Below are positions 761-64,000 of a DNA stretch of 64,000 nt, piece by piece. Origin of the DNA: Comamonadaceae bacterium (GTDB lineage Bacteria > Pseudomonadota > Gammaproteobacteria > Burkholderiales > Burkholderiaceae_C); the NCBI GenBank assembly GCA_027486495.1, contig JAIXOZ010000078.1, positions 62,001 through 126,000 on the forward strand. Direction: 5' to 3'. Position numbers and translations under genes: made by a program. Position 1 is the stretch's first letter. Every line of letters begins with the position of its first letter. The notes beneath the pieces were generated by a model. That model did not search any database. It saw only the letters and a list, made by a program, of their open reading frames with translations, and was not told the DNA's origin.

Positions 761-820
761 ATTTTCTTGCGTATTCTCGTGCAATAATATTTGAGTACTA
801 AATTAATAAAAACATGGAAA
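761..820 (+). promoter_or_regulatory. AT-rich leader and possible promoter of the type I secretion operon
   Basis: The stretch is markedly richer in A+T than its surroundings and holds TAATAT at 785-790, a good -10 match. No good -35 is seen (TTTTCT at 17-base spacing). Transcription starting near 797 would favour translation from ATG 821 or 836 over the TTG at 791. Confidence 0.25.
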
Positions 821-12868: not shown

Positions 12869-13564
12869 TCACACCATCTGCACCGGCGCCGTGAAGGCAT
12901 AGCCCAGTTTGTGCACGGTTTCCATGGGCAGATCGAAGCCCAGAACGTCGTTGGCTTTGTTGCGCAGGCGGCGAACCAGAATTTCCATGCGCCGGAAATC
13001 GTAGCTCTCCGGGTCGTGGCCCAGGCAGGTGACCAGTTCGTTGCGCGAGACGGCCTGGCCGGGCGTTTGCGCCAGGCGGCTGAGCAGCACGCTTTCGGAA
13101 TGCGTCAGCTTGATCGCCTGGCCTTGGGGCGACTCCAGCGTCCACTGCAATTTGTGCAAAGTCCACAGCGCTTGAGAATTGGCCCGGATGCGGCGCACCA
13201 GGTTTTGCACCAGCGAAGACAACTCTTCAAGCTGGATGGGCTTGACCAGATAAACATCGGCGCCAGCCCGAATGCCTTCGATGCGTTGATTGCTGTCACC
13301 ACGGGCTGTGGTGATGATGACGCCCTTGTCCTGCATGAGTGGGCGTTGTTTGAGCCATTCCAGCCCATCGCCATCGGGCAAACCCAAGTCGAGCACCAAA
13401 ATTTCATAGGGATGGGTTCTCATCCATTCCTGTGCTGCGCGCAGGCTGCTCACGCCATCCGCAATATTGCCTTCCATATTGAGGTAAGTGACCATGGCTT
13501 CTTGCAGGTCGGCTTCATCTTCCAGGACCAAAACCCGGGGTGGGGCGGCGCTCGGTGTTCTCAT
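12869..13564 (-). CDS. OmpR/PhoB-type response regulator
   Basis: A 231-residue two-component regulator. The receiver domain (about residues 10-120) has the acidic pair in VLEDEADL, the phospho-acceptor Asp in ILVLDLGLPDGDG, a Thr in IITTARG and the Lys in YLVKPIQ. The C-terminal half is a winged-helix DNA-binding domain (LTHSESVLLSRLAQTPGQAVSRNEL, RRMEILVRRLRNKAN, ETVHKLGYAF). The start at 13564 overlaps the stop of the histidine kinase gene by four bases, so the two are translationally coupled and form a pair. Being divergent from the giant-protein operon, it is the best candidate for its regulator. Confidence 0.93.
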   Translation of the reverse strand: MRTPSAAPPRVLVLEDEADLQEAMVTYLNMEGNIADGVSSLRAAQEWMRTHPYEILVLDLGLPDGDGLEWLKQRPLMQDKGVIITTARGDSNQRIEGIRAGADVYLVKPIQLEELSSLVQNLVRRIRANSQALWTLHKLQWTLESPQGQAIKLTHSESVLLSRLAQTPGQAVSRNELVTCLGHDPESYDFRRMEILVRRLRNKANDVLGFDLPMETVHKLGYAFTAPVQMV

Positions 13565-15585: not shown

Positions 15586-15632
15586 TTTGGTATTTTTTTG
15601 CTGGTTACTTTGGAATAAATTATGTTTCAAAA

Positions 15633-15926: not shown

Positions 15927-16673
15927 ATGTTTGAGCAAGTTGTTCCCGTGAATAAAGAGCGCCATGCCGGTAAAAAAGTCCGCATGAGCAATGATTTTGG
16001 CTTCGCCTCGAAGTTCCATGTCGCCTACATCACCCTGCATGAATTTGCACGGGCTGCGTCCATCTACCCGGTGGTGTTCCTGGAAGACCAAGCCAACGAC
16101 GAATTCCGTCCCGTTGTTCTGATGGGCCTGGACGCCGGTGAGAACCTGTTTGTCAACGCCCAGGGCGAGTGGTCGGCCTCCTACATTCCGGCCATCATCC
16201 GCCGCTACCCCTTTGCGCTGACCAAGGCGCCCGAGGCAGATCGCTTCATCGTTTGTGTGGACGAAGCCAGTGAACTGCTCAGCGACACCGAGGGCGCGGC
16301 CATGTTTGACGAACAAGGCAACCCCACGCAGGTCATTGAAAACGTCAAGCGTTATCTGGGTGAATTGCAGCAAATGGACCAGATGACCCATGAGTTCGGC
16401 AAGTTCCTGGTGCAAAACAACCTGTTGACCCCCCTGAACATGCGCGTCAATGCCGCAGACCAAGTGCGCAACATCACCGGTTGCTACGTGATCAACGAAG
16501 AGCGACTGAACAACTTCAGCGATGCCAAGTTCCTGGAAGTGCGCCAAAAAGGCTACCTGCCCGCGATCTTTGCGCACCTGATCTCGCTGTCGCAGATCGA
16601 GCGCCTGGCCAGCATGAAAAAGCCGGGTGCCAACGCCTCAACGCCTGCGCCTTCGACCGAAACCTTGCAGTAA
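15927..16673 (+). CDS. SapC-family protein
   Basis: A 248-residue protein of the SapC family, named after a gene in the Campylobacter fetus S-layer locus. Supporting features are the N-terminal FEQVVPVNKERHAGKKVR, HVAYITLHEFARAASIYPVVFLED, the segment ASYIPAIIRRYPFAL and FGKFLVQNNLLTPL. No signal peptide or membrane helix is visible, so it is probably cytoplasmic. Its biochemical role is unknown; family members are often found beside surface-protein export genes, as here. ATG 15927 is preceded by AAGGA at 15915-15919, which decides it over the TTG at 15900. It is the first gene of the operon that ends in the giant protein gene. The C-terminal tail is Pro/Thr-rich (about 230-248). Confidence 0.9.
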   Translation: MFEQVVPVNKERHAGKKVRMSNDFGFASKFHVAYITLHEFARAASIYPVVFLEDQANDEFRPVVLMGLDAGENLFVNAQGEWSASYIPAIIRRYPFALTKAPEADRFIVCVDEASELLSDTEGAAMFDEQGNPTQVIENVKRYLGELQQMDQMTHEFGKFLVQNNLLTPLNMRVNAADQVRNITGCYVINEERLNNFSDAKFLEVRQKGYLPAIFAHLISLSQIERLASMKKPGANASTPAPSTETLQ

Positions 16674-16692
16674 ACCCGATGCACCCCTCTCA

Positions 16693-16709
16693 GGCACATC
16701 CGGTGTGCC
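16693..16709 (+). repeat. small hairpin in the sapC–tolC intergenic gap
   Basis: GGCACA-TCCGG-TGTGCC forms a perfect 6-bp stem with a 5-base loop in the 110-base gap after sapC. No T-run follows, so it is not a standard terminator. It could be an mRNA processing or stability element that separates sapC expression from the export genes. Confidence 0.3.
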
Positions 16710-16783
16710 CGGGTGGGGTTGGCATGACAGCGCCAGCGTCTTTTGAAGCCGCTGGTTTTTGCAATCGTACTTGCGTGATTGGC

Positions 16784-18364
16784 ATGAAACACACCTCCAC
16801 AACCCCAAGCGCCTTGATCCGCGTGACCTTGACCGCTGCTGTGTGCGCACTGGCCTGCCAAAGCTTTGCGCAGTCGACCCCCGCTGCGCTGGAAAAAAAT
16901 ACTCAGGCGCCAGCCGCTTTGGCTGCTCAAAAGCAGCCGCTCAGCCTCAAGGCCTTGGTGGAGAAACTGCGGGCATCGAACAAGACCATCCGATCCAAGC
17001 AGGCCGAAGGGGACATCGCGGCCACCGGCATTGACCGTGCCGCCTCGGCATTTCAGCCCCTGGCCAACCTGTCGGCCGCCCAGGGCAAAAGCCTCACCAA
17101 GAACACCTTTGAAGAATCCATCATTCGTCAAGGCACGCTCGGCGTGTATGACCGCCAAGGCAAAGACTACTCGGTGGGTGTGTCGAAGTTGCTGGCCGCC
17201 ACCGGTGCCAAGCTGGAAGTCAAAAGCACGCTCTCCAGATTCCTGACCAACATTCCCGACTTAAACCGCCCTGAAGGTGCCTACGACAACCGCAGCAACC
17301 TGGGCTTTTCGATCACCCAACCGCTGGCGCGCGATGCCGGGCCGGCCGTCACCACCGCCCGCCTGCAAGTGGCCACATTGGACGCCACAGCGGCTGACCA
17401 TGCCACCCGCGACACCGAAACCAGCGTCGTGGCCGAGGCCATCATGGCCTACCACGAGATGGTTTTTGCCCAGCACCGCGTGCAAGCCGCTCAGGAAAAA
17501 ATCCGCAACGGCCAGCGTTTGCTGGTGGAAGCCCAGGCCATCAACCGCAATGGCCGTTTGCCCGACTCGGATGTTTGGGAAGTCGAGAACGCCCTGAACC
17601 GCTTCAAGGCCGGTTTGAGCGAAGCCCTGCAAGTCGAGCGCGAAAAAACCAACCGCGTGCGCACCATGCTGCTGAGCGTGGCCGCCGACAGCCCCCAGGG
17701 TCTGGTGGCGGTGGACGCATTGCCAGCGGTGGCCGACAAAGTCTTGAGCGCCGACGAAAGCCTGCGCACCGCCATGGCGCGCCGCGACGATTACCTGATG
17801 CGCAAAGTGCAAGCCGAGCGCGAAGGCGTGCAATTGGCCTACACCCAAAACCAGACCTTGCCGCGCGTCGATCTGGTGGCCTCCTACGGTATGAATGGCC
17901 TGGAATACGCTTTGAGTCGGGCCTACAGCGTGTCCCGCATGTCGGACTACCCGACTTGGTCGGTCGGTTTGCAGGTGTCCATTCCGCTGGGCCGCAACAT
18001 GCAAGCGCAGTCCGACTTGAAGGCCGCCTTGATTCGCCGTGAGGACGCCTTGCTGGGCCTGAAGTCGGTGGAGGTGCAAATTTCCAACGACATCGACACC
18101 ACCTTGTCGATGCGCAGCTCGGCGGTGGAACGCTGGGACCTGTGGAAGCAGGTTCATGCCCGAGAAAAGCAGCAGCTGGAGCTGGAACGCCGCAAATTCA
18201 CGGCCGGGCGCAGTGACACGCGTGAAGTGCTGCTGCGCGAAGAGCGTGTGATCAATGCCCAGTTGACCGTTTACGAACAACAAATGGCCGTGGCCCGTGC
18301 CGAAGTGCTGCTGGATGCCGCACAGGGCACCTTGCTGGACAGTTTTGCCGATCCGAAAAAGTGA
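16784..18364 (+). CDS. TolC-family outer-membrane channel of the giant-protein export cluster
   Basis: A 526-residue outer-membrane efflux protein, longer than the TolC-like protein at 0.8 kb and not closely similar to it by eye. A signal peptide is clear (LIRVTLTAAVCALACQSFAQ). Mature features are the start LSLKALVEKLRASNKTIRSKQAE, the strand GFSITQPLARDAG, the helix around RVQAAQEKIRNGQRLLVEAQ and the second repeat ending GRSDTREVLLREERVINAQLTVYEQQ. It would form the outer-membrane exit duct. ATG 16784 is chosen because it starts the signal peptide; the same frame is open far upstream without meaning. The next gene (HlyD-like) begins 13 bases after its stop. Confidence 0.88.
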   Translation: MKHTSTTPSALIRVTLTAAVCALACQSFAQSTPAALEKNTQAPAALAAQKQPLSLKALVEKLRASNKTIRSKQAEGDIAATGIDRAASAFQPLANLSAAQGKSLTKNTFEESIIRQGTLGVYDRQGKDYSVGVSKLLAATGAKLEVKSTLSRFLTNIPDLNRPEGAYDNRSNLGFSITQPLARDAGPAVTTARLQVATLDATAADHATRDTETSVVAEAIMAYHEMVFAQHRVQAAQEKIRNGQRLLVEAQAINRNGRLPDSDVWEVENALNRFKAGLSEALQVEREKTNRVRTMLLSVAADSPQGLVAVDALPAVADKVLSADESLRTAMARRDDYLMRKVQAEREGVQLAYTQNQTLPRVDLVASYGMNGLEYALSRAYSVSRMSDYPTWSVGLQVSIPLGRNMQAQSDLKAALIRREDALLGLKSVEVQISNDIDTTLSMRSSAVERWDLWKQVHAREKQQLELERRKFTAGRSDTREVLLREERVINAQLTVYEQQMAVARAEVLLDAAQGTLLDSFADPKK

Positions 18365-18377
18365 TTTGAAGGTGTGT

Positions 18378-19235
18378 ATGTTGTTGTTTGCAGGTTTGGA
18401 TCGAGTCAGATGCCATGTGCGCTGTGCCCTGTGGCGGGCCTGTTTGCGCGGCCTGTTGTGGGCCGCAGGGGCTGTGCTGGCCCTGCCCAGCGTGGCCCAA
18501 GTCAGTGCGCCAGGCGTGACCCAAGCCTTGAAAGAAACCAAACTCAGCTTCACGGTGGCGGGCCGCATTGACGGTGTGCAGGTCAAAGAAGGCCAGAGCG
18601 TGCAAAAAGGCCAGATCCTGCTGTATCTGGACAAGACCGCCGAAGAGCTGGAAGTCAAGCGCAGACGTCTGCTTTTGCAGGACATGTCGCGCCTGAACGA
18701 ATTGCGTGAAAAGGAAAAAGTGCTGAGCGAACAGGTCAGCTCGCTCAAGTCCTTGCTGGCCTCGGGCGGCGTCTCGCGCAAGCAGGCCGAAGACGAAGAG
18801 TTGGCCTTGGGCGCCGTTTCTTCTGAGCGCAAGGCCTTGGAGAGCACCAAGCAGCGTGAACAAGTCGAGCTGAGCCTGGCCATCGAGGCCCATGACCGCA
18901 GGCATTTGCGAGCCCCCATCTCTGGCATCGTCACCAAACTGGTGCCCCGCCCGGGTGAGAGCATTGGCGCCCATGAGCCCATGGTGCATGTGGTCAACGT
19001 CAGCCGGGTGCGGTTTCTGGGCAATGTGCAGTCCCAAAACAGCGCAGCCTTGAAAGTGGGCCACAAAGTCACCATCAAGTTGGGCCTGGACGCCAGCGCG
19101 CAAAGCCGCGAGGCGCGCATTGTTTTTGTCTCGCCCGTCACCGATCCGGCCAGTGGTCTGGTGGAAGTGATCGCCGAGTTTGACAACAAAGACGGCTCCG
19201 TGCGCCCCGGCATCACCGGCCGCATGGTGTTTTGA
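18378..19235 (+). CDS. HlyD/RND-type periplasmic adaptor
   Basis: A 285-residue periplasmic adaptor. An N-terminal signal or anchor (LRGLLWAAGAVLALPSVAQ) is followed by a biotinyl-lipoyl half-motif (VAGRIDGVQVKEGQSVQKGQILLYLD), a helical hairpin (about 90-180) and the second half-motif LRAPISGIVTKLVPRPGESIG. The beta-barrel is short, and the C-terminus (VRPGITGRMVF) is typical of efflux adaptors. GAAGG five bases upstream supports ATG 18378. It is the first of three HlyD-like proteins in a row, and together with the TolC protein before it suggests an envelope-spanning conduit. Confidence 0.88.
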   Translation: MLLFAGLDRVRCHVRCALWRACLRGLLWAAGAVLALPSVAQVSAPGVTQALKETKLSFTVAGRIDGVQVKEGQSVQKGQILLYLDKTAEELEVKRRRLLLQDMSRLNELREKEKVLSEQVSSLKSLLASGGVSRKQAEDEELALGAVSSERKALESTKQREQVELSLAIEAHDRRHLRAPISGIVTKLVPRPGESIGAHEPMVHVVNVSRVRFLGNVQSQNSAALKVGHKVTIKLGLDASAQSREARIVFVSPVTDPASGLVEVIAEFDNKDGSVRPGITGRMVF

Positions 19236-19246
19236 GTCGGCTGCCC

Positions 19247-21196
19247 ATGACCCTTGATGCCGTGATGATCCGCGCCAATTCAGCCACCCAGGCCAGTGCC
19301 CGGCTGGCTGCACTGGCGCAATTTGACGGCACCGTGGAGGCCTTTTGGCCCTTGTACCTGCAGACCGTGGCACAAGCCCTGACGGCCCGTCGCGTGCTGC
19401 TCTTGACCTCGGCCGTGGGCCGCCCTTGGCAGGCCCGTGCCCAGTGGCCCGCGCAAGGCGCAGACGCTCCGGGAGACGCCGACTGGACCTTGCATCTGGT
19501 GGAGCAGGTCAAGGACGGTCTGCCCCATGCCCAATGCAACGAGTCCGATGCGCTGGCGCTTGTCATGATGGCGCCGTCCGATCCGGGCACGCCGGTGTTT
19601 GCGGTGGTGGCGCTGGACGTGGACACCAGCGAGTGGGAAGAAGACGGCCTGTGCGCCTGGGCGGCACTGGCTGCACCCATTCCCGCCTTGTTTGGTGTGC
19701 AAAGCCAGTCGCGTGCGCAGGCGCTGGCGACTCAAAAGGCTTTGCAGACCGCCGCCGCTCCTGCACCCGGTGCGGCCATTACGGCCCTTGCGGCCGAATC
19801 AGGGGAGCCTGCACACAGCAGCGCCGACGTGCAGGGCCGTGCAGAGCGCTTGCACGACATCTTGCGCCTGAGCATTGCGCTCAGCCAGGAGTCGCGCTTC
19901 ATGCCGCTGGCCATGGCCTTGTGCAATGAACTGGCCCTGCGTTTTGACTGCACCCGCGTGTCCTTGGGCTGGGTGGATGGCCATTACGTGCGCTTGGTGG
20001 CCGTGAGCCATGTTGAAAATTTCGATGCCAAGTCCTCCGCTTCGCGTGCGCTGGAAGCGGCCATGGAAGAAGCACTCGAGCAAGACCGTGTGCTGCTGTA
20101 CCCCGCGCCGCAAGACCAGGGGCAGGTCCTGCGTGCGCACCAAGCCTATGCCGACGCGCTGGCCGTGCCTTACCTGAGCACTGTGCCTTTGACACGGGGT
20201 GAAACCGTGGACGCGGTGCTTTGTCTGGAGGGCCAAAGCGCCTCGCTCAGTGAATCGCAGCTGTGGGAGTTGCGTTTGATGGGCGAATCGGTTTCGCGCT
20301 GGTTGGTCACACTGCATGCGCAAGACCGCTGGTTTGGTGCACGCTGGTGGCATGCGCTGGCCCAGCAAGCCCGCACATTTTTGCAACCCAAGCACAGCGC
20401 CCTCAAGCTCGCAGGCGTGACGGCGGTGGTGCTGCTGTGTGTGCTGTTCATGTTGCCCTGGGCTTACCGGGTCGATGCCAGCCTGGCCATTCGCAGCCAG
20501 GATTTGCTCTTCATGCCCGCGCCGTTTGACGGCTATTTGCGCAAGGTGCACGTCAACGTCGGCGATCAGGTGGCCTCGGGCGATATTCTGGTCGAGCTGG
20601 ACACCCGCGACCTGAGCCTGGAGGCCGCGATGGCAGAAGCCGAGCTGGCGCGCCACGCCCGCGAATCGGAAAAAGCCATGGCCGCCCAGCAACTGGCGGA
20701 CATGCAGATTGCCGCGGCTCGCCAGCAGCAATCGGTGGCGCGACTGGACTTGATCCGTTACCAGCTGGGCAACGCGCAGGTGCGTGCGCCCTATGCTGGG
20801 GTGGTCATCGAAGGCGACCTCAAAAAGAACCTGGGCGCGCCGGTGCGCAAGGGTGATTTGCTGCTGAAACTGGCCCAGACCACGCAAAGCTATGTCGAGC
20901 TGGAAATCGATCAGATTTACATCCACGAGGTGCGGGTCGGCAGCCAAGGCGAATTTGCCCTGGTTGGACGGCCGCAAGAGCGCTACGGCATCACGCTCAC
21001 GCGCATCGACCCGGCCGCGACCCACCGCGATGGCCGCACCTTCTATCTGGCACGCGCCCAGGTGGCAGGTGGCCTCAAGCCCGATTGGCGCCCCGGCATG
21101 GGCGGCACCGCCAAGCTGGAGGCCGGTGACCGCAGCCTGATCTGGGTGATGACGCAACGCACGGTGCGCTTCTTGCGGGAGTTCTTCTGGTTATGA
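19247..21196 (+). CDS. GAF–transmembrane–HlyD fusion protein
   Basis: About 649 residues with an unusual order: a cytoplasmic N-terminal half containing a GAF-like sensor domain (about 200-365, around RLHDILRLSIALSQ, LRFDCTRVSLGWVDG, LSTVPLTRGETVDAVLCLE), then one membrane helix (about 385-405, TAVVLLCVLFMLPWAY). A periplasmic HlyD-like adaptor follows, with lipoyl half-motifs FDGYLRKVHVNVGDQVASGDILVELD and VRAPYAGVVIEGDL. The layout suggests that a cytoplasmic signal could be coupled to the export conduit. ATG 19247 was preferred, but an in-frame TTG at 19232 overlapping the previous stop is possible. The stop overlaps the next start by four bases (ATGA). Confidence 0.85.
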   Translation: MTLDAVMIRANSATQASARLAALAQFDGTVEAFWPLYLQTVAQALTARRVLLLTSAVGRPWQARAQWPAQGADAPGDADWTLHLVEQVKDGLPHAQCNESDALALVMMAPSDPGTPVFAVVALDVDTSEWEEDGLCAWAALAAPIPALFGVQSQSRAQALATQKALQTAAAPAPGAAITALAAESGEPAHSSADVQGRAERLHDILRLSIALSQESRFMPLAMALCNELALRFDCTRVSLGWVDGHYVRLVAVSHVENFDAKSSASRALEAAMEEALEQDRVLLYPAPQDQGQVLRAHQAYADALAVPYLSTVPLTRGETVDAVLCLEGQSASLSESQLWELRLMGESVSRWLVTLHAQDRWFGARWWHALAQQARTFLQPKHSALKLAGVTAVVLLCVLFMLPWAYRVDASLAIRSQDLLFMPAPFDGYLRKVHVNVGDQVASGDILVELDTRDLSLEAAMAEAELARHARESEKAMAAQQLADMQIAAARQQQSVARLDLIRYQLGNAQVRAPYAGVVIEGDLKKNLGAPVRKGDLLLKLAQTTQSYVELEIDQIYIHEVRVGSQGEFALVGRPQERYGITLTRIDPAATHRDGRTFYLARAQVAGGLKPDWRPGMGGTAKLEAGDRSLIWVMTQRTVRFLREFFWL

Positions 21197-23379
21197 GTCT
21201 TGAAGAGGCCAGTGGCAAGACCTTCAGCGACGCTTGGCATCGGGTCTCGGGCGTGCGCGCGCACCTGCGCACCAGCGTGGCTTCCCATCGGCAAACTTTT
21301 GGTGGCCAGCCCTGGGTGGTGTTGCGCGACAAATTCAGCAACGAATGGTTTCGCGTCTCACCCGATGCCTTTGCATTTTTGTGTCGCCTGACCGATGGCC
21401 GCACCGTGGACGAGGCCTGGAACGACTGCCTGGCGCACGACGCGCACCGTGCGCTCACCCAGGAAGAAGTTGTGCAGCTGTTGGGGCAGCTCAATTTGTC
21501 GAACCTGCTGCAATACGACCGGGGCGATTCGCAGGCGAGTTTGTTTGAGCGCTTTTCCAAGCGCAAAAAACGCGAGATGTGGGCGCTGTTGATGGGTTTT
21601 CTGTCCATCAAGGTGCCCCTGTTTGACCCGGACCGCCTGCTGGCTTGGGCCATGCCCGCGATCCGCGTGGTCTACAGCCGTTGGGGCTTTGTGGTGTATG
21701 CCGCCTTGCTGTTCATGGGCGCCAAGGCCTTGATGGAAGAGTCCGATCACCTGTTTGACCAATCGGCCGGTCTGCTGGCGCCTTCGAACCTGGGGCTGCT
21801 GTATGTGGGCTTTTTGTTGTCCAAGGTGCTGCACGAAATCAGCCATGCCGCGGTGTGCAAGTTGTTCGGCGGCGAGGTCCACAAGATCGGCGTGATGCTG
21901 CTCTTTTTTGCGCCCATACCCTATGTGGACGCAACCGCCGCCTGGGGTTTTCGCAGCCGCCGACAAAGGGTGCTGGTGGGGGCTTCTGGGGTGGTGGCCG
22001 AGCTGGCCCTGGCCGCCTGCGCCGCCATGCTGTGGGCCAACACGGCGCCCGGCACGCTCAATGCGCTGGCCTACGACATCATGTTTGTGGCCAGTGTTTC
22101 GTCTGTGTTCTTCAACCTGAACCCCTTGCTGCGCTTTGACGGTTACCACATCCTGGTGGATCTGGTGGACATACCCAACCTGTACCAGCGCTCGCGCGAG
22201 CAAATGCGTTACCTGGCCGAGCGCTACATCCTGCGCCTGACCAACGCCCAACCGTCGGCGCGCACGGGACGCGAAGCCATTTTTTTGCCGCTGTACGGCG
22301 TGTCCAGCATCTTGTACTGGCTGCTGCTCATGTCCACGATCATCTTCTTCATCGCGGGTGAGTACCTGGATCTGGGCGTTCTTCTGGCGGTGGTGCTGTT
22401 TTTCACTGCGGCGGTGATGCCTTTGTACAAATTCATCAAGTATTTGCACAGCAACCCGCAGCTCGGTTACCAACGGGGCCAGGCGGTGGCGATTTCGGCC
22501 GGGCTGTCTGTGCTGGTGCTGGGGACTTTGGGGGCGGTGCCCGTGCCTGACCAGATCCGCGTGACAGGCGTGGTCGAAGCGGTCCAATCGCGCCAGTTGC
22601 ACACCGAAACCGAAGGGTTCATGACCGAACTGTTGGCTCGGCCAGGTGCCGTGGTGCAAGCGGGGCAGCCCCTGGTGCGCCTGCGCCACCCCGAGCTGGC
22701 CTTTGACATTCGGGCTGCCCAAATGCAGCGCGACCAGATCCTGTCGCAGGAAATCCAGGCCATCTCCAGGCACTCGACCGATTTGAGCGCGATCGAGCAG
22801 CAATTGCACGCGGTGGAGCAAACCCTGGCCGATCTGCATTACCGGCAAGCGGCGCAGCTGATCCGTGCACCGATCACCGGCATCTGGAGCGCCAGTGAGC
22901 TGGACGCCAGTCACGGCCAATGGATGGCCCGAGGCGCGGCCGTGGGCACCATCGTCAACGAAGACCGCTGGCGTTTTGTGGCGGTCTTGCCGCAAGTGGC
23001 CAGCCATGTCTTTGATGACCGCATTGCCCGCACCGAGGTGCGCCTGCGCGGGCAAGAGGGCATCAACATCCCGGTGGCCGCCACCTCGGTCATGCCCTTT
23101 GAACAGGGCCAGTTGCCCTCCAAGGCCCTGGGCATGGCCGGTGGGGGCGATTTGGCCGTGTCCCCATCGGACCCCCATGGTTTGACGGCGGCAGAGCCGT
23201 TTTTCCGCATCGAGTCGAGCTTCAAATCCGAAGCCAAAGCCGACGGTAGTGACAGTGATTTGCCCCACTTCGTTCATGGCCGCATTGGCACCATGCGCAT
23301 CACGCTGTCCAACCGCCCCTTGCTGGTGCAGTGGGAGCGCAAGCTGCGCCAGTTCTTCCAGAGGAAGTTCCGCGTATGA
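21193..23379 (+). CDS. PqqD–M50 metallopeptidase–HlyD fusion protein
   Basis: A 728-residue polytopic membrane protein. Residues about 35-110 resemble a PqqD-type peptide-binding domain (WVVLRDKFSNEWFRVSPDAFAFL...LTDGRTVDEAW). Residues about 160-440 are a site-2-protease-like M50 domain with the zinc motif HEISH (214-218) and a second motif NPLLRFDGYH (310-319) supplying the metal-binding Asp, among six or so hydrophobic helices. The C-terminal third is a HlyD-like periplasmic adaptor with lipoyl half-motifs (MTELLARPGAVVQAGQPLVRLRHPE, LIRAPITGIWSA). All catalytic residues are present, so it may be an active intramembrane peptidase or use the fold as a scaffold. It overlaps both neighbours by four bases. 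Its place beside a giant LEPR-XLL-like protein suggests a role in that protein's export or signal removal (inference). Confidence 0.87.
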   Translation: MSLEEASGKTFSDAWHRVSGVRAHLRTSVASHRQTFGGQPWVVLRDKFSNEWFRVSPDAFAFLCRLTDGRTVDEAWNDCLAHDAHRALTQEEVVQLLGQLNLSNLLQYDRGDSQASLFERFSKRKKREMWALLMGFLSIKVPLFDPDRLLAWAMPAIRVVYSRWGFVVYAALLFMGAKALMEESDHLFDQSAGLLAPSNLGLLYVGFLLSKVLHEISHAAVCKLFGGEVHKIGVMLLFFAPIPYVDATAAWGFRSRRQRVLVGASGVVAELALAACAAMLWANTAPGTLNALAYDIMFVASVSSVFFNLNPLLRFDGYHILVDLVDIPNLYQRSREQMRYLAERYILRLTNAQPSARTGREAIFLPLYGVSSILYWLLLMSTIIFFIAGEYLDLGVLLAVVLFFTAAVMPLYKFIKYLHSNPQLGYQRGQAVAISAGLSVLVLGTLGAVPVPDQIRVTGVVEAVQSRQLHTETEGFMTELLARPGAVVQAGQPLVRLRHPELAFDIRAAQMQRDQILSQEIQAISRHSTDLSAIEQQLHAVEQTLADLHYRQAAQLIRAPITGIWSASELDASHGQWMARGAAVGTIVNEDRWRFVAVLPQVASHVFDDRIARTEVRLRGQEGINIPVAATSVMPFEQGQLPSKALGMAGGGDLAVSPSDPHGLTAAEPFFRIESSFKSEAKADGSDSDLPHFVHGRIGTMRITLSNRPLLVQWERKLRQFFQRKFRV

Positions 23380-25460
23380 ACATGGCGGCACTGCCTGGCA
23401 CTTTGTTGCCCCAGTCAGCGGCCCACTGGGCTGACCGGGCCCCGGTGCTGGCGCGGGCCTGTTCGCTCGCGCCCATGGAGAAGCTGCCCGAAGGACTGGA
23501 TGCCTTTTTTCATGGCCTGCAAGGGCATTGGCTGCGCTGGCGCAGTGCCCAACTGCCCCTGGCACAACAGGCCCAGGCCGCGCTCAAGGCCTGCAACGCG
23601 CTGGACGATGCGTCGCCGCAAGACCTGCACGCCCGCGTGCAGCAGGCAGGCGTTTGCATGCGCCTGGACCCGCAGCAGGCCAAAGGGCAGCTGATGGCGG
23701 TGCTGGCCACGATTGGCCAAGTCGCCTGGCGTGAGCTGGGCCTGAAGCCCTATGCCGTTCAGTTCATGGGGGCCATGGCCATTCACCGTGGTTTGCTCGC
23801 CGAGATGGCCACCGGCGAGGGCAAAACCCTCACGGTGGGCATGGCCGGTGTGCTGGCGGGTTTGAGCGGGCGGGCCTGCCATGTGATCACGGCCAACGAT
23901 TACCTGGCCCAACGCGACGCTGAAAAACTCGCGCCCCTCTACCGGGGCTGCGGCCTGACGGTGGCCTCGGTCTTTGGTGAATTGGAGGCTCAGGATCGGC
24001 CCCTCCGCTATGCGGCCGATGTGGTGTACCTGACCGCCAAAGAGTTGCTGGCCGATCACCTCAAGGACCAACTCGGGCCGGGCACACCAGAGCACCTGAA
24101 CCAGCAGGCCTTTGGGCACTGGTTGCATGCCGAGCGGCTTGCCGCTGCGGACGGCCGTTTTTTGGTGCGCGGCTTGAACACGGCCATCGTGGACGAGGCC
24201 GACAGCATCCTGATCGACGAAGCCGTCACGCCGCTGATTTTGTCGGCACCCCGTGCCAGCAGCGGTTTGTCCGAGGCGGTCTTGCTGGTGTCTGCTTTGG
24301 CCGACACGCTGCAAGAGGGCTCGGATTACAGTGTCACGCTCCAAAACCAGAGCATCACCCTCTTGCCACCAGCCCGTGAACGCTTGGCTGGCCAGGCCGA
24401 GCCATTGGCCGATCTGTGGCGTCCAGCGCCCCGGCGTGAGGAACTCTTGCGTCAGGCCCTGATGGTGCGCCACTTTCACAAGCCCGGTCAGCACTATGTG
24501 GTGCAAGACGGTGAGGTGGTTTTGCTCGACGAGTTCACAGGCCGCATGACGCCCGGGCGCACCCTGACGGCCGGTCTGCACCAGGCCATCGAGGCGCGTG
24601 AAGGCCTGACCATCACCGCCCCCAACGAGTCGCTGGCGCAGATGAGTTTTCAGGCTTTTTTCCGCTGCTTTCGCAAGCTGTCGGGCAGCACAGGCACCGC
24701 CTGGGAAGCGGCCAGCGAGCTGTGGCGTGTCTACGGCTTGCAGGTGGTGCGCATTCCCACGCACCGCCCGCGCCAAACGATTTACCACGCACCTGTGCTG
24801 GTCGAGCAGTCTGCCCACAAGTGGGCCGCTGTGGTGCAGGAAGTGCTGGCCGAACGTGCCAAGGGCAGGCCGGTGCTGGTCGGGGTGCGCAGCATCACGA
24901 GCAGCCAGCTTTTGGCCGAGCATTTGCAAGCCGCCCAGTGTCCCGTCAGCGTGCTCAATGCCCTGGCCCACGCCCAGGAAGCGGACATCGTGGCCCAGGC
25001 CGGAGCGCCAGGCCGGGTCACGATTGCCACCAACATGGCCGGTCGCGGCACCGACATTGGCCTGGGCGAGGGCGTGGCCGAGGCTGGTGGCCTGCATGTC
25101 ATCGTGGCCGAAAGCAACGACTCGGCGCGCATTGACCGGCAATTGGCAGGGCGCTGCGGCCGCCAGGGCGACCCGGGCAGCGTGTCGGTGTATCTGTGTC
25201 TGGCTGACGAATTGGTGCAGCGCCTGATGTCCCAAGGTCTGCGGCGTCTGGTGTTGGCTGTGTCCAGCCGTGGGGGGGCAGGTCGTCAGCCGTCGGCTCG
25301 CCCGTCACCCAGCAGCCGGGTGGCGGCGTGGGCATTTCGCAGGGTTCAAAAGCGCGCCGAGCGCCAAGCCTTTTTGCGCCGCTGGTCCGTGCTGCGCTCT
25401 GACGACTGGATGGCCTCGGCCTTGCCCTTTGGCGGTCGCCGCAAAGGAGGCCCGGCATGA
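23376..25460 (+). CDS. short SecA-like ATPase
   Basis: A 694-residue SecA-type motor. Visible are LGLKPYAVQFMGAMAIHRG (about 121-139), Walker A ATGEGKT (145-151), VITANDYLAQRDAE, the DEAD box (273-276, VDEADSILIDEA), VDGE-type VVLLDEFTGRMTPGR, SGSTGTAWEAASE, TNMAGRGTDIG (about 552-562) and QLAGRCGRQGDPGS. Housekeeping SecA is about 900 residues. Here only about 90 Arg-rich residues follow the last ATPase motif, so the helical scaffold, two-helix finger and zinc tail are missing, and the region between DEAD box and second motor domain is short. It therefore cannot be the general SecA and is probably a dedicated variant for this cluster. GAGGAAG precedes ATG 23376, which overlaps the M50 stop. 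Confidence 0.9.
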   Translation: MNMAALPGTLLPQSAAHWADRAPVLARACSLAPMEKLPEGLDAFFHGLQGHWLRWRSAQLPLAQQAQAALKACNALDDASPQDLHARVQQAGVCMRLDPQQAKGQLMAVLATIGQVAWRELGLKPYAVQFMGAMAIHRGLLAEMATGEGKTLTVGMAGVLAGLSGRACHVITANDYLAQRDAEKLAPLYRGCGLTVASVFGELEAQDRPLRYAADVVYLTAKELLADHLKDQLGPGTPEHLNQQAFGHWLHAERLAAADGRFLVRGLNTAIVDEADSILIDEAVTPLILSAPRASSGLSEAVLLVSALADTLQEGSDYSVTLQNQSITLLPPARERLAGQAEPLADLWRPAPRREELLRQALMVRHFHKPGQHYVVQDGEVVLLDEFTGRMTPGRTLTAGLHQAIEAREGLTITAPNESLAQMSFQAFFRCFRKLSGSTGTAWEAASELWRVYGLQVVRIPTHRPRQTIYHAPVLVEQSAHKWAAVVQEVLAERAKGRPVLVGVRSITSSQLLAEHLQAAQCPVSVLNALAHAQEADIVAQAGAPGRVTIATNMAGRGTDIGLGEGVAEAGGLHVIVAESNDSARIDRQLAGRCGRQGDPGSVSVYLCLADELVQRLMSQGLRRLVLAVSSRGGAGRQPSARPSPSSRVAAWAFRRVQKRAERQAFLRRWSVLRSDDWMASALPFGGRRKGGPA

Positions 25461-26347
25461 GACCCTACAAGGCTTGGCCCTGGACAGCGAAATCGCCCCA
25501 TGCCCGCCGTTATGGCTCGGCCCTGAACTGCATGCTGCAAGAAAGCCAGGGCCTGACGTCGTCGGGCTGGGAAGTGTCGTGTCGCCTCAGCCCCTCGGGC
25601 GCACGGGCGGACCGCCTGCTGTGGGGCTTTGCCGTAAACGGTGCGGCCCGCTCGCGCATTGCCGGGCTGTCAAAGAGCATCGGAATGCCCGACGCCCTGG
25701 CGCAGTCGTTTGACGCCTATGCCCCCGAGGCCCGGCAAATACTTTTGGCGGCCGACCTGGGGCCGCACGGCGTGGAGCGCCGTGCTTATCTGGAGTTTTC
25801 GGTGCACCAGCGGCCCCCGGCGCAAGGCATCGTGATGCGCGGCTACAAGTGGCGTGTGGATGCCGATGCACGCAGCGCAGACGATGTCTCTACCCGCATC
25901 ACCGATTACCTGCGCATCAAGATCCAGCCCAGCGACTTGCTGTCGTTTTTGCAGACCCTGCCCGGGGTGCCCGAGGTGGCGCACCCGGCCTATGCGGTGG
26001 CCGACTTTGCCGTGCGCGAGGCTTTGGCGCAGCGCCCGGACTGGAACGGATTTGAATATTGGGCCGTGACCGAACAGGCCTCTGACAGAGGGTCTTGCTG
26101 CGTGCGCTTGCACGACAGCGGCTTGCACATGGGCGTTCTTTGGCCCGTCGTTGCGCCACTTTTGGGCACCTGGTCACTCGACTGTGCTGCCCACGAATTG
26201 TTGTTTTCAAAAATGGGTCATCGGCCCCTTGGATGGATCGCAGCCGGCGTAGACGCCCGGGGCGAACCTTTCGTGACTTTTTATTGTGATGCCGGACGCG
26301 ATGACGCCCGGCAAGCGCTTGCCGCAGGAGGCTTCCATGAGTCGTGA
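25457..26347 (+). CDS. protein of unknown family in the export operon
   Basis: A 296-residue protein that I do not recognise. It has no signal peptide and no membrane helix, so it is probably cytoplasmic. It contains an alternating hydrophobic/charged pattern suggesting a mixed alpha/beta fold (for example QILLAADLGPHGVERRAYLE and ITDYLRIKIQPSDLLSFL) and a few cysteines (a CC pair near residue 214). Its start overlaps the SecA-like stop by four bases and its end overlaps the start of the giant gene by 11 bases. It is thus translated between the motor and the cargo; a chaperone, targeting factor or modifying enzyme for the giant protein would fit, but nothing in the sequence proves it. Confidence 0.75.
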   Translation: MRPYKAWPWTAKSPHARRYGSALNCMLQESQGLTSSGWEVSCRLSPSGARADRLLWGFAVNGAARSRIAGLSKSIGMPDALAQSFDAYAPEARQILLAADLGPHGVERRAYLEFSVHQRPPAQGIVMRGYKWRVDADARSADDVSTRITDYLRIKIQPSDLLSFLQTLPGVPEVAHPAYAVADFAVREALAQRPDWNGFEYWAVTEQASDRGSCCVRLHDSGLHMGVLWPVVAPLLGTWSLDCAAHELLFSKMGHRPLGWIAAGVDARGEPFVTFYCDAGRDDARQALAAGGFHES

Positions 26348-26444
26348 CAAATCTAAAAATCTTTCCAAGCCCCCATTCGCCCTGAAGAAAAACAGGGTCC
26401 AGCTTGAAAAGCTCGAAGAACGGGTGCTGCTGTCGGCTGAGCCG
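26337..26444 (+). other. N-terminal LEPR-XLL-like motif of the giant protein
   Basis: Residues 1-36 begin with a Lys-rich, signal-peptide-free stretch and end in LEKLEERVLLSAEP. The LEPR-XLL consensus is LEPR-x-LLSA[DE]P; here Pro is replaced by Glu (LEER). The motif marks the N-terminus of giant proteins in several phyla. It may be a recognition or processing site for the M50/SecA-like machinery upstream (inference). Confidence 0.7.
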
Positions 26445-56400: not shown

Positions 56401-59400
56401 TGGAAGCCAATCAGGTCTTTGGCAGCCAGGCAGGCGCGGCTGCGCGTGATGTGCTGGAGTTGGGCACCCCTGAGCAGAAAATCCAGGTGTTGACCGGCAA
56501 GGTCACCCCGGACGGGAACGAGACGATGGCGCTGGACTTTGCCAGCGCAGGCGGTGCCTTCTTGGCCCTGGCCACCGATGCCAACATCAGCATCGGCGCA
56601 TCGGTCCTCTTGCAAGGCACTTTCGGGCTGGCCCGCATGGGCCAACGCAACACCACGCTGGACGACGGCACCCAGCGCATGATGGAGGTGACCGCATTGT
56701 CCGCAAAGGGCGTGACGGCCAGTTTTGGCAGCGACATTGGCACGGACCGCTTCGCGGGTGTGGCGCTGAGCAACGCAGACATCGGTCTGATGGTGCTGGC
56801 TGACTCGGCAGGCGCGGGCGCATTTGTGGGCTTGAAGGCAACGGCTGCAGGCGCTGCCCTGCAAGGTCTGTCGGGCTTGAGCCTCCAAGGTGGCACGCTC
56901 AGCCTGGCGGTCAACACCGGCCCGGGCGCGGGCGATTTGCAAGGCCGTGTGGTGGACTTCACCCAGGGCGACCTGGACGCCGATGGCAAGCTCAATGGCT
57001 CGACAGCCATCCGCCAGCGCGGGGTCACGGTGACCACGCTGGACTTCCAAGAGGCGGAGTTCGCCGCGGCGGGCACCATTTCGGTCGAACTGAAAAACAG
57101 CACCGATGCCTTGGCACCACCGCTGATCTCGGGCACCGGCAGTTTTGCCTTGCGTGTGCGCGAAGGCTCGACGGTGATTGGCGCCTCAGGCATCAACGCC
57201 CTGGTCAAGGTGGGTGATCAGCAGGCGGGCATCCGTGAGGGTGCCTTGATGCTGGTGGTGCAAAACGGTGGTTTTGCCGTGGCTGTCGAGGGCAATGGCC
57301 AGGTGCCTGTGCCCGGTTTGTCGGCCACTTCGGTGTATGGCGACGTGTCGATGGCCTTCAACAACACGGGCGCAGCCATCAACGAGAGCCTGACGGTGGG
57401 CGACAAGACGCTGAATGTCAATTTCTCGGCCGAAGAAGCGGGCCAGAACAAGAACCTGCATTTCTCATTGACGAATCTGGATGTGTCCCTGGGTGGCGGT
57501 CTGGGCAGCGCCTTGCTGGACGTGGCCGGTCAGATGAGCCAGGCGCGGGTCGATCTGCAAAACGGCGAGAAACTGCCCCTGATCGACAAGTCGCTGGACG
57601 ACATCCTGAACCTGTCTCCACTGGTCAGCATGGGCGACTATGTGCAGCAGTACATCAACGGCTACATGGACCCGACCTGGGTGTCCAGCATCGAAGGTTT
57701 GCCTGCCGCCGTGTACGGCGAGCTGGGCGTGCCGACCCTGTCGGGCCTGAAGGCTTATCTGGATTCGAACTGGGCGTCCAAGGCCGGTGTCAGTGCGGGC
57801 CTGAGCTTCAGTCTGGACCAAAACGGTCTGTCTTTGGGCTTTGACGGCCGTGTCAAGCTGGGCACGGACATGCTGCAACTGGACCTGAGTGCAGGCTTGG
57901 CGCAGTACGGTTTGCAGTTTGATGCCACGGCCGATGTGCAGGCCAAAATCGATGCCGAGGTCGACTTCGACCTGGCCATTGATTGGAGGAATGGACTGTC
58001 GGCCCGTTTTGACCTGAACAAGCTGGCCTTCCAGGGCAGCTTGAAAGCCGACAGCCTGGTGCTGGCGGCGCGTCTGGGGCCGCTGGATGTGGGCATTGGC
58101 CGACTGGGCACGGACGGGTATGGCAATGCGTATGAGCAAGGCAGCTTCCAGTTCGATCTGGGCGGCAGTCTGGCCATGAAAGACGGCAAGTTCCACCTCA
58201 CGCCGGGCGAGAACGTGCTGGCCATGAGCTTGCCGATTTATGCCACCTTGGCGGGTGTGGACCTGGCAGGTCAATCAGGTGGGCCGGGCAAGGTCATGGT
58301 GACGGGCAATCCCTTGACCGGTGCTCTGGTGTTCCAGGCCACGGGCCTGGACAAACTGACGAACTTCTCGAAGATCAAGATCGAGGATGTGCTGATGGCC
58401 ATCCCCAATGTGCTGGATTACCTGCAAACCGTGGATGTGTCCCAGCTGGGTCTGGGCAGCCTGCCCTTCATTGAAAAATCACTGGACCAGCTTCTGGACA
58501 TCGCGGGTGCCTTTGAAACAGGCGTGGTCGACAAGATCGACTTCAACCGGCCGATGCAGAAATGGGTGGCGGCCCCCGGGCAAAGCCAGTTGGCCACCGG
58601 CACAGCGGCCATCACCAAGGGCAGCTCGGTGCTCAGCGGTAAGGCCGGGCAGTTTGCTTCGTCTATGAAGGGCTATTTCGTCTCCACGGGCAATCAGGTG
58701 CTGCAGGTCTTGTCGGTGTCCGTGGATGGCGCCAGCATGACCCTGTCGAGCGACTACACCTCGAGCGACACGGCCAGCGCGTACACGGTGCACAAGCGCA
58801 TTGAGCGCATCAGCACTTTGGGTGAGTTTGTGACGGCGATCAACAAGTCCGGCGTGCTGGGCGACAAGAAAGCCAGCTACAACGCAGACACCGGCCATCT
58901 GGTGATCCCCATCAGCGCAAAATTGAAGTTGCCGGAGTTCTCCACGGCCTTGAACCTGAACTTGGCAGCGGGCTCAGATTTGTCGCTGAGCACCGATGCC
59001 ATCGCCTCCGTTGGCGTGGATGTGGGGGTGGACTTCAACCTGGTGCTGATCACCGGCGACCGCTTTGATGTGGCGATTGACCATTTTGTGGCCACAGCGG
59101 GCATCACCGCCGATGTCATCGATTTGCAAGTGCTGGCCAAGCTGGGCTTTGTCACGCTGCAAGCCGGTGGTGTGGGCAGCGGCTCGCAGGTGCACCTGGG
59201 CGCCAAGCTCACGGCCACCCTGGACAGGGCGCCCAACGCCGTGGGCGGCGAGTTCTTCACACGCCAGGAGTTGTACGACACAGGCCCCAAGTGGCTGAAC
59301 TTTGACGTGACGGGCGACGCCTATGCGCGCTTGAAGGGCCTGACGGTCAAGACCGGCGGTGCCAGCATCCATGTGGGCGAGGGGCTCGAGTTGGGCCTGT

Positions 59401-62400
59401 ATGTGCAAAACCTGTTCGACTGGTCGCAGAGCCAGCTGGTGACCGCCAGCCAGTTCGACATCAACAATGCGGCGCAGCGACTCCAATACGGCATTTCGGC
59501 CAACGATGTGGTGATCGTCCTGCCCGATGTGGCCGCCATCACCGATTTGAGCCGCCTGAGCATCCAGGACATCGTGGGCGGCTTGCGTGCCGTGGCCGAT
59601 GTGGTGGACGCTGCCGTGGGCAGCCAGCCTTTCTACACGCAGGAGTTGCCGCTGATCAACCGCTCGATGAGCGACATCCTGAACTTTGGCGACCAGTTGC
59701 TGGCGCGCATTGAAAAGGCGGCGGACACCCCGGCCGCCGCACTGGACGAAGCCGAGAAGATCATTGAAGAGGCTTTGGGCGTTCCTGCAGGTTTGTTTGA
59801 CTTGTCGCTGGATGTGGCCAATCACCGCCTGAACGTCGACTTCACACTGGACCTTCAGTACAGCGATGATTTCAAGATCAACCTGGACCTGGCGACGCTG
59901 GCCTCATTGGCAGGCATCGATTTGCCCAGCGGTTTTGGCAAGTTGTTTGATGCCTCGGGCAAAGCGGCTGGCGTGTTCGCCGTGGGTGCCAGCCTGGTGG
60001 CGCGTGTGGGCATTGCCCTGCCGGGCTCTGCCAGCGGTACGCCGCCCGTGCAGATCATCGACTACGACGAGGCCACCAACACCGGCACGCACCTGGACCT
60101 GACGGCCAGCCTGAACGCGAAGGACCTGGTGATCAAACTCAGCGCGGGCCAAATCCAGTTGGGCGCCTTCAATGGCAAAGTGGTGCTGGACGAAGACGGC
60201 AAGGCCGAGACCGCCGCACCGGCTTTGTTGCGCATAGCGCTGGACAAGGGGCAGCCCAAGGTGATCGCACGCGGTGCTCTGGACATCGATTTGCCGATCA
60301 GCCTGCTGGCCTTGTCGCAGCAAGTGCCGCTGGGCAGTTTGCACATTTACACCGATCCGGCCTTGGGCAACCAAGGCTTGTCGACCCTGCTGGCCCAGTT
60401 GGCAGGGGTCGCCAGCGGCGCTCCGGCCTTGAAGATGGCGTTGCCCGATCTGGCGCGTGCGGTGCCCTCCGGCACTTCGGCGCTGGATGTGCTGTACGAC
60501 CCAAGCCTGCTGCTCAACGGTGTGGACCTGGGTCTGGGCACCGTGCAGGACTTCTTCCAGAACAGCCTGACGGCGGACATTCCGTTCATTGGCACCCATC
60601 TGGCCGATGCCGGTCAGCTCATTGGCAATTTGCGCGGTGGCTTGCTGCAAGACTTGCGCACCAAGCTCGCTGGCCCGGGCAAGCCCGTCGAGTTGGTGCG
60701 CGATTCGCTGTTCAACACCTTCAACAGTCTGGGCATCTTGATGGACTATGACGGCGTGGACGGTCTGACCATCGACGACATTGACGTGGCGTTCTTTGAC
60801 GCCAGCGGTTTGCGGGTGTCGACCTGGAAGCCGGGCATGGTCTTGCCCAAAGCTGGGGTAGACGCCATCCGTTTTGATGCCAATCTGGGCGGGCGCATTC
60901 TGGCACTGGGGGTAGAAATTCCGCTGGACCTGAACATACCGAATCTGTCGCTCAATGTGGACGGCGGTTTTGCACTCAGTGCCGAGTGGCAATACGACTT
61001 CGGCTTTGGCCTGTCGGCCTCCAGTGGCTTTTACATGGTGACCAACTCGGATGCCTTGGACCCCGAACTGAGCCTGGACATCGAAGCCTATCTGGATGGC
61101 AGCCCCACCGACCCGAGCGTCACCTCGCCCTTTGAAGGTCAGGGCAAGCTGATGTTCTTTGAAGCCAGCGTGCAGGACCTTTACAACAGCACCAACTCGC
61201 CTTATCGGGCCAGCGGTTTGAACGGCCGCTTGGGCATTGACCTCAAGGGTGACAAGGCCAACCGCCTGACGCTGGACAGCCTGTTGTCCAGCCCCCTGTC
61301 AGCGGTCAAGGTGGACTTTGGCGTGGGTGCGCACCTGAACCTGGGCATGGCGCTGGCGGTCACGGGCATGCCCAGTTTGAATGCCGACTTCAAGCTCGAC
61401 TGGGATTGGCGTTTGGGCGAGCGTGTGGCTTCCAAGCCGGACATCTCGATCAACAACATCCGCCTGGATTTGCAGTCCACGGTGTTGGATTTCCTGATGC
61501 CGATTGCCAAGCAAGTGGCCACCGTGGTGGAGCCTTTCCGTGATGTGGTCAATGCCCTGACCACCCCGATCACCGGTCTGGATCTGGTGCTCAAGGATGA
61601 TCCGACGCTGCGCGGTGTGATCAACATGGTCTGGAAGATCGCGATGCCCAATGAGCCCGCCATCAACTGGGCCTTCCTGGATGCGGTCAAGTTTGCGCTG
61701 GACATGCCCACCATGCTGCAAAGCCTGATTGGCTTCAGCGCTGGCTTGCCGCTGGGCAGCATCAAGGGCCTGGGCACCAACCGTGTGACGTTCGAGGCGG
61801 CCGAGGCGCTGGATCTGAACCTCTCGGACACCTCGTCCATCATCACGGCCTTCAATGCCAAGATGACGCAGATGAGCAAGGATTCCGCAGGCGGTGCTTC
61901 GGGCAGCCGCTCGGGACTGCAGTTCATGTCGTACATGACGGACATCTCGAACTGGGCGAAGATTTTCAGCGGCGGCAATGCCACGTTGTTCACTTACGAG
62001 CTGCCATACCTGGACTTCAGCCTCTACAACTTCGATGTGTTGCTGGCCAAGCCCAATTTGGCGTTGCTGACGGCGGGTGTGATTCCGATTCCTATCGAAT
62101 TCCCGATTTATGCCTATGGCGGTGTGCGCTTGTTCGCAGACTTCTCCTTCGGCTATGACACCTATGGCATCCAAAAAGCCGTTGCCACAGGCAATGTGCT
62201 CAATGTGCTGGACGGTTTCTATGTCAACGACTGGTCCATGCCGGCGACCAGGAATGGCGTGACCCAGCCGAGCAAGGAAAAGCCGGAAATGATCCTCAGC
62301 GTCGAGATCGGCCTGAAGGCTGGTGTGGGCGTGCCCGGTGTGGCGGTGGGTCTGGGCGCGGGTCTGCAACTCAAGGTGGAGGCCGACCTGAACGACATCA

Positions 62401-64000: not shown

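Follow-up and report, generated by a model that had tools for sequence, protein, structure and literature searches.

A conserved gene cluster with a protease-HlyD fusion and a shortened SecA, a probable exporter of giant LEPR-tagged proteins

Gene cluster and giant gene in the window

The window analysed here is a stretch of 64,000 nucleotides, bases 62001–126000 of a 138533-base contig, from an assembly of 3.78 Mb in 175 contigs that is 95.4% complete. According to its open reading frames, with start codons picked by eye, a cluster of seven genes at 15927–26347 on the + strand runs into a giant gene that begins at 26337. The features are as follows.

15927–16673, + strand: SapC-family protein of 248 aa, a recurrent accessory (PF07277, 3.9e-73)
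16784–18364 (ATG 16784), + strand: TolC-like outer-membrane duct (PF02321 OEP, 8.5e-23)
18378–19235 (ATG 18378), + strand: HlyD-like periplasmic adaptor (PF16576, 4.5e-19; PF13437, 9.5e-17)
19232–21196, + strand: GAF-HlyD fusion (GAF-like N-terminal part, hydrophobic segment, then HlyD)
21193–23379, + strand: RRE(PqqD-like)-M50-HlyD fusion of 728 aa (NF041824 match, 11-member alignment)
21259–21522, + strand: putative RRE/PqqD-like domain, about aa 23–110 of M50-HlyD (structure model, PDB matches)
21832–21846, + strand: HExxH of the M50 site (H214, E215, H218), invariant in 11 of 11 aligned proteins
23376–25460 (ATG 23376), + strand: short SecA-like ATPase (Pfam SecA_DEAD, SecA_PP_bind)
23814–23828, + strand: SecA P-loop GEGKT (alignment of short SecAs)
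25457–26347, + strand: predicted prenyltransferase-like protein, earlier labelled unknown, an optional accessory (structure model)
26337–64000, + strand: first part of the giant cargo gene, which ends at contig base 130852 (open reading frame)
26412–26438, + strand: LEPR-XLL tag LEERVLLSA, aa 26–34 of the giant (NF012209 match)

The SapC and TolC genes are separated by 110 bases and the TolC and HlyD genes by 13 bases, whereas the last five junctions overlap, four of them by 4 bases and the one between the prenyltransferase-like and giant genes by 11. The unbroken run described in the initial annotation is borne out by the gene positions on one strand, although it had counted only four overlapping junctions at the end. 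The ATG of the giant gene is preceded by AGGAGG. Pfam recovers SapC, OEP/TolC, HlyD in three proteins, Peptidase_M50 and the SecA domains (including P-loop_SecA), and these matches, together with family members and the RRE model described below, uphold the labels first given to the SapC, TolC, HlyD, GAF-HlyD, PqqD-M50-HlyD and short SecA genes. Among related loci, OEP is detected in 19 of 25 ORFs picked at the TolC place and HlyD in 18 of 23 picked at the HlyD place, the window's included in both cases. A profile derived from four such SapC proteins finds 15 distinct places in the relatives' loci besides the window's. SapC is an optional extra and perhaps acts in surface attachment.

At 791–5455, a conventional type 1 set (TolC, ABC transporter, HlyD) precedes the cluster on the same strand at a distance of 10.5 kb, and chorismate synthase, an MFS transporter and other genes lie in between. 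No RTX-like substrate gene stands out by eye in the ORFs preceding this set. The first reading had reported no ABC ATPase, which is correct for the seven genes but passed over the upstream set. Just upstream of the cluster, at 13561–15630 on the - strand, lies a gene for a 7TMR-DISM histidine kinase, which could be a regulator of the cluster.

The giant gene is 42.5 kb long and encodes 14171 aa, none of which is a cysteine. Its N-terminus scores 20.2 bits against NF012209, which has a cut-off of 17, and is the one match in the window's genome. The cargo leader has the form (F/L)-E-x-L-E-x-R-x-L-L-S-(A/G)-(D/E). Pfam assigns no family to the first 8000 residues of the giant, and only weak Sortilin/BNR-like matches and one RTX-like stretch to the rest. 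By a simple and crude hydropathy measure the giant has no signal-peptide-like stretch: its peak over 12 residues is 1.01, compared to 2.23 in the window's TolC and 2.07 in its HlyD. Thirty-seven N-termini tagged in the same way (type A) have a median peak of 1.24 and a highest of 1.99, and 17 N-termini from the sister set introduced below have 1.58 and 2.03, respectively. LEPR open frames reach 20466 codons in a sample of 194 genomes centred on Verrucomicrobia, where tagged frames of 18189 to 20466 codons are found at G364:C142, G367:C1 and G505:C29.

Putative leader protease, shortened SecA and prenyltransferase-like protein

Relatives were collected by a contig scan with the M50 alignment, and the best 80 of the 533 obtained are treated here as machine loci. 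In these best 80, both HExxH and NPxxxxDxY are present without exception, and 11 of 11 aligned M50-HlyD proteins have 5–7 hydrophobic segments, as expected of M50/site-2 proteases; no other of the seven proteins in the window has several such segments. The Peptidase_M50 match of the window's protein (1.9e-5, 24.6 bits) is below the Pfam cut-off of 27.2. The closest NCBIfam model of the fusion is that of a RiPP leader protease, the daptide protease NF041824, which matches aa 25–410 at 7.1e-61 with 206 bits, below the model cut-off of 300.

The N-terminal domain of M50-HlyD was modelled from a 45-row alignment with a pLDDT of 84.6. Its six best PDB matches are lasso-peptide B1 chains with leader peptide (6jx3, 5v1u, 5v1v), for which Foldseek reports a probability of 0.95–1.00 and TM-scores of 0.65–0.69 by target length and 0.43–0.46 by query length; the best E value is 0.014 and no match reached 0.001. 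PqqD (PF05402) is detected in 24 of 45 family members, and Pfam finds no PqqD match in the window's own protein. With a model fold of this kind and PF05402 in its relatives, the domain falls into the RRE/PqqD class and seems to be a putative leader-binding RRE. Taken with the M50 and HlyD matches, the model and PqqD hits suggest that a single protein unites domains for leader binding and intramembrane proteolysis with a periplasmic adaptor. The earlier proposal that the M50 fusion recognises or trims the N-terminus of the giant would fit such a predicted domain next to intact protease motifs. The preceding GAF-HlyD protein has one hydrophobic segment, aa 390–408, between its GAF-like part and HlyD. 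GAF is weak in the window's protein (0.021), and PF01590 matches 18 of 25 aligned family members.

In 63 loci a short SecA scores above 550 bits. A profile of ten members aligns to residues 15–612 of the SecA chain 3jv2 and ends there. This span comprises NBD1, the preprotein clamp (PPXD), NBD2 and the first part of the scaffold helix; most of the scaffold is missing, as are the HWD, two-helix finger and C-tail. Ordinary SecA uses the two-helix finger, HWD, scaffold and C-tail at SecYEG. Thus, the short form has NBD1, PPXD and NBD2 with the P-loop and DEAD motifs, but not the SecY-engaging C-terminal part. The median ORF in the 63 loci is 669 aa, compared to 886–997 aa in 19 housekeeping copies. 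All 63 have a P-loop (GEGKT in 59, GEGKS or GSGKS in four) and a DEAD-like motif, and the pattern of the third motif is missing in two, leaving 61; the second-half motifs are degenerate in L043, one of the ten aligned proteins. Conservation of the P-loop and DEAD-like motifs throughout implies that ATP hydrolysis is probably under selection.

In the phylogenetic tree, 61 short SecAs and 19 housekeeping SecAs are placed on opposite sides of one branch with a support of 100. Since the housekeeping sequences all come from the window's order, the tree separates the short form from those proteins and does not bear on its origin. The window's assembly, 95.4% complete, contains one SecY and no SecA besides the short one. 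The missing housekeeping SecA is most likely an assembly gap, because eight other machine genomes, from which it was fetched, have one.

Intact protease motifs and a GAF part that could sense a ligand might also suit a machine that tethers giants at the surface and releases them, with the M50 protein as a regulated sheddase and no role in export. Retention and release under the control of proteases is common among giant adhesins. This alternative, which we regard as very unlikely, leaves both the SecA and the putative leader-binding domain unexplained.

The protein encoded at 25457–26347 was modelled together with five relatives (pLDDT 83.9). Fifty-nine PDB chains match the model at E≤0.001, and the 50 of them that are listed are all prenyltransferases by title, with TM-scores of about 0.4–0.55. 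The fold, known from the predicted model only, is one that we take to be of the ABBA type. Relatives are found in six of 300 genomes of the order, five of which have the machine, whereas in the sixth (G153) the M50 gene is present in pieces; two more are encoded behind the machine SecA in Sulfuritalea loci L143 and L147. The prenyltransferase-like protein is therefore an optional part, and perhaps modifies the cargo. Separately, a relative is located beside an ORF with a radical-SAM-like cysteine motif, recognised by eye, at L207 (1024–2103 and 2156–3097, - strand), a pairing that is another hint of RiPP-like chemistry.

Co-occurrence with LEPR genes and a sister set without SecA

The gene order is well maintained across the machine loci. 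A GAF-HlyD profile match is present in 74 of the 80, directly before M50 in 69 of these 74, and the short SecA in 63, directly behind M50 in 62; all three genes occur in 58. Thirteen of the 17 loci without short SecA end within 3.1 kb behind M50, and four (L095, L121, L134, L148) have none despite room for its full length. A simple motif test covering at most 10 kb detects an ABC-like ORF near only three of the 80 loci. This scarcity bears on the possibility that the giant is exported by conventional type 1 secretion, for instance by the window's TolC-ABC-HlyD set, and that the cluster does something else. Such a set does lie 10.5 kb upstream, and HlyD and TolC are type 1 parts, but the ABC set is separated from the cluster by chorismate synthase, the MFS transporter and other genes, and we consider this explanation highly improbable. 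The analysis instead supports the earlier claim that the cluster is a conserved unit travelling with LEPR-XLL giants.

By eye, a LEPR-type tag near an ORF start is found in 16 of the 80 loci, six times on the opposite strand and once (L090) in an ORF of 455 aa; a wider tag pattern applied to 23 loci without visible tag found nothing. NF012209 matches occur in 39 of 50 machine genomes, chosen by us from the 80 source genomes. In two of the 11 genomes without a match (L099, L126), a tag can be recognised by eye next to the machine. Judging by the labels of the tree, its short SecAs represent 11 phyla, namely Pseudomonadota, Verrucomicrobiota, Planctomycetota, Thermodesulfobacteriota, Nitrospirota, Chlorobiota, Fibrobacterota, Elusimicrobiota, Spirochaetota, Kiritimatiellota and Myxococcota, although many of the sources are MAGs, so misplaced contigs are possible. 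In one MAG, titled Akkermansia muciniphila (L082), the cluster is collinear with that of the window and the M50 protein is 70% identical; being so close, it is probably a misplaced contig.

Co-occurrence was quantified in 300 genomes of the window's order, counting LEPR by NF012209 match (32 genomes), M50-HlyD at ≥450 bits (32) and short SecA at ≥700 bits (31), with bit limits set after gaps had been seen in the score lists; housekeeping SecAs score below 600 bits. LEPR and short SecA are found together in 28 genomes, LEPR only in four (G093, G094, G238, G249), short SecA only in three (G052, G114, G181) and neither in 265. Without the 11 genomes used for model building, the corresponding numbers are 17, 4, 3 and 265. 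M50-HlyD and short SecA coincide in 31 genomes (1 M50-HlyD only, 0 SecA only, 268 neither). The LEPR matches in the four LEPR-only genomes are weak (E 2e-4 to 5e-4); in one genome the matching frame is 23 codons long, and the sister set is present in the remaining three. A second sample consisted of 194 genomes from the phylum of Verrucomicrobia bacterium IMCC26134 (G309), which was the chosen centre and is itself one of the 13 genomes with both genes; one genome has LEPR only, one SecA only and 179 have neither. Fisher tests give p values of 7.6e-32 for the full order sample, 5e-21 for the reduced one and 3e-18 for the second phylum, all of them too strong because related genomes are not independent, but the pattern nonetheless repeats in two phyla. 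The recurrence of the gene set with LEPR genes in the two samples is more than chance. Widespread occurrence of the cluster without a giant gene, which the initial annotation had named as evidence against its proposal, is not what either sample shows.

Strict adjacency is a different matter. The order sample contains 45 machine copies, with two G153 fragments excluded, and for 18 of them a LEPR gene is found at a distance of no more than 15 kb, in all 18 cases on the same strand. The remaining 27 have no LEPR match within that distance, and their LEPR genes are often on other contigs. The idea of a giant next door to every machine was accordingly dropped, leaving co-occurrence together with partial co-location. 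Among the 28 genomes with both, 13 have no LEPR gene within 15 kb of a machine copy, which is partly due to contig ends. As the order has 83 LEPR genes and 45 machine copies, one machine may serve several cargos and act in trans.

The same data argue against the view that the cluster is a RiPP-like cassette for a small peptide and the giant gene merely a frequent neighbour. An RRE-like domain, a daptide-type protease and a prenyltransferase-like protein would all be at home in such a cassette. However, with gaps of 110 and 13 bases and overlaps at the other junctions, no peptide gene fits within the cluster, LEPR giants co-occur even where they are not adjacent, and the prenyltransferase-like protein is found in only six of the 300 genomes. 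We therefore judge this view to be very improbable.

A sister set consists of TolC, HlyD, a relative of GAF-HlyD and M50-HlyD, has neither a SecA nor another ATPase among these four genes, and lies beside giants tagged LEPRxMFDGA (loci L162–L201). It was recovered from 30 lower-scoring M50-HlyD matches (246–347 bits) of the order sample, 25 of which were fetched. None of the 25 loci has a SecA, 23 have the GAF-HlyD relative, and all 25 have HExxH; in six members examined, the second M50 motif is NxxPFMRFDGY with small changes. Pfam confirms TolC in three of three and HlyD in three of three sister ORFs tested, and two GAF-HlyD relatives tested contain HlyD and no GAF. The pattern LE-x-R-x-(L/M/I/V/F)-F-(D/N)-(G/A) has 20 matches in 2.87 Mb of locus sequence, all at sister loci, in 18 distinct clusters and on the same strand, with one tagged frame (G098) closing after 54 codons. 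The tag is thus found in 18 of 25 clusters, or in 15 of 22 as an unbiased count, since three of the 18 had first been fetched via a LEPR match; the other seven are cut off on their upstream side by a contig edge no more than about 8 kb away. Conversely, the type-A tag pattern has 31 matches in loci L042–L201 and none at sister loci. The receptor-protease-adaptor protein therefore exists in two forms with two tags.

Absence of SecA beside tagged giants of the sister set also means that SecA is not part of every version, and the short SecA may have another job. Housekeeping SecA and SecYEG could bring the chain across the inner membrane, with the cluster reading the leader and then taking the chain over, and the short SecA could be a chaperone or clamp for very long chains rather than a motor. 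This would agree with the 0 of 25 sister loci with SecA and with the missing SecY-engaging C-terminal part. Type-A cargos also look longer, with a median of 6789 codons over 83 LEPR matches versus 2025–5446 in eight sister cargos, although the median includes contig-cut frames, a few sister cargos and one frame of 23 codons, and the sister range covers the cargos with a given frame length. Against it stand the lack of a signal-peptide-like stretch in the window's giant, by hydropathy only, and the P-loop and DEAD-like motifs kept in 63 of 63 short SecAs. On balance we find this arrangement possible but rather doubtful.

Proposed mechanism and comparison with known systems

We consider it probable that the cluster is a dedicated exporter for giants with an N-terminal LEPR leader. 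In this scheme, the RRE domain at the cytosolic end of M50-HlyD would quite likely bind the leader, and the intact M50 site may then cut it in the membrane, thereby committing or releasing the chain. Gripping and feeding the chain might be the task of the short SecA, by means of its clamp (PPXD) and its pair of nucleotide-binding domains. As it has no SecY-engaging parts, it would more likely dock on the complex of M50 and GAF-HlyD proteins, or meet SecYEG in another way. From what is known of their families, the HlyD domains and TolC would form the conduit to the surface. We infer both the motor function of the short SecA, which the initial annotation had put in place of an ABC motor, and the path through the inner membrane, and the role of this SecA is the least certain part of the mechanism.

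A broader reading, on which we are almost evenly balanced and lean slightly against, treats the cargos as oversized RiPP-like precursors of about 2000 to more than 20000 residues in at least 11 phyla. An RRE domain on an intramembrane protease would read and remove the LEPR leader. In type A a stripped SecA would move the chain, in the sister type it would move without an ATPase encoded by the set, and HlyD and TolC would carry it out. Each subtype would read its own tag (LEPRxLLSAD or LEPRxMFDGA), and in some lineages a prenyltransferase would modify the cargo.

The problem addressed is how the largest bacterial proteins are exported where they have no Sec signal and no ABC exporter is available. 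The answer offered is testable and combines a short tag with a receptor domain and a candidate motor. The gene set occurs in several named strains that can be cultured, and among the environmental strains with a machine locus are Zoogloea ramigera NBRC 15342 and Marinobacterium mangrovicola DSM 27697. If this answer is true, a SecA would operate without the regions considered to couple it to SecYEG, and leader-peptide recognition, as in RiPPs, would be linked to protein secretion.

We know of no secretion system of such make-up. Among the papers listed from the open literature, none is on the gene set by title and start of abstract; the retrieved passages of PMC3482391 are unrelated to the gene set, and the words SecA and HlyD are absent from a Vibrio paper. 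The novelty lies in the combination, since the parts belong to known families and the tag has already been named by NCBI.

The exporters of SiiE, LapA and BapA are type 1 secretion systems (ABC-HlyD-TolC), in which the cargo has a C-terminal secretion signal. The cluster resembles them in its HlyD-type adaptors, TolC-type duct and very large cargo, but there is no ABC motor among the seven genes. It also departs from type 1 in that two of its three HlyD proteins are fusions (with GAF and with RRE-M50), the ATPase is SecA-like and the conserved tag is N-terminal. Accessory Sec (SecA2-SecY2-Asp), which belongs to Gram-positive bacteria, similarly devotes a SecA paralogue to a giant surface protein. 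Unlike in accessory Sec, the window's assembly has a single SecY, the short SecA goes no further than the first part of the scaffold helix, and the partners are HlyD, TolC and M50. With the leader proteases of daptides (NF041824) and epipeptides (YydH/LiaK, NF058609), M50-HlyD shares the M50-type protease family, and the daptide model covers its N-terminal domain as well; however, M50-HlyD scores below both cut-offs, is fused to HlyD and is tied to proteins of thousands of residues. The 25457–26347 protein shares a predicted fold with the ABBA prenyltransferases TleC, KgpF, LimF and PagF, but with 8–14% identity and TM-scores of about 0.4–0.55 when aligned by structure, and its gene lies between secA and the giant gene. 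Finally, the window's giant is above the cut-off for the LEPR-XLL proteins of NF012209 (NCBIfam LEPR-8K). That model names the tag only, and the present analysis adds to it the putative exporter gene set and the second tag form, LEPRxMFDGA.
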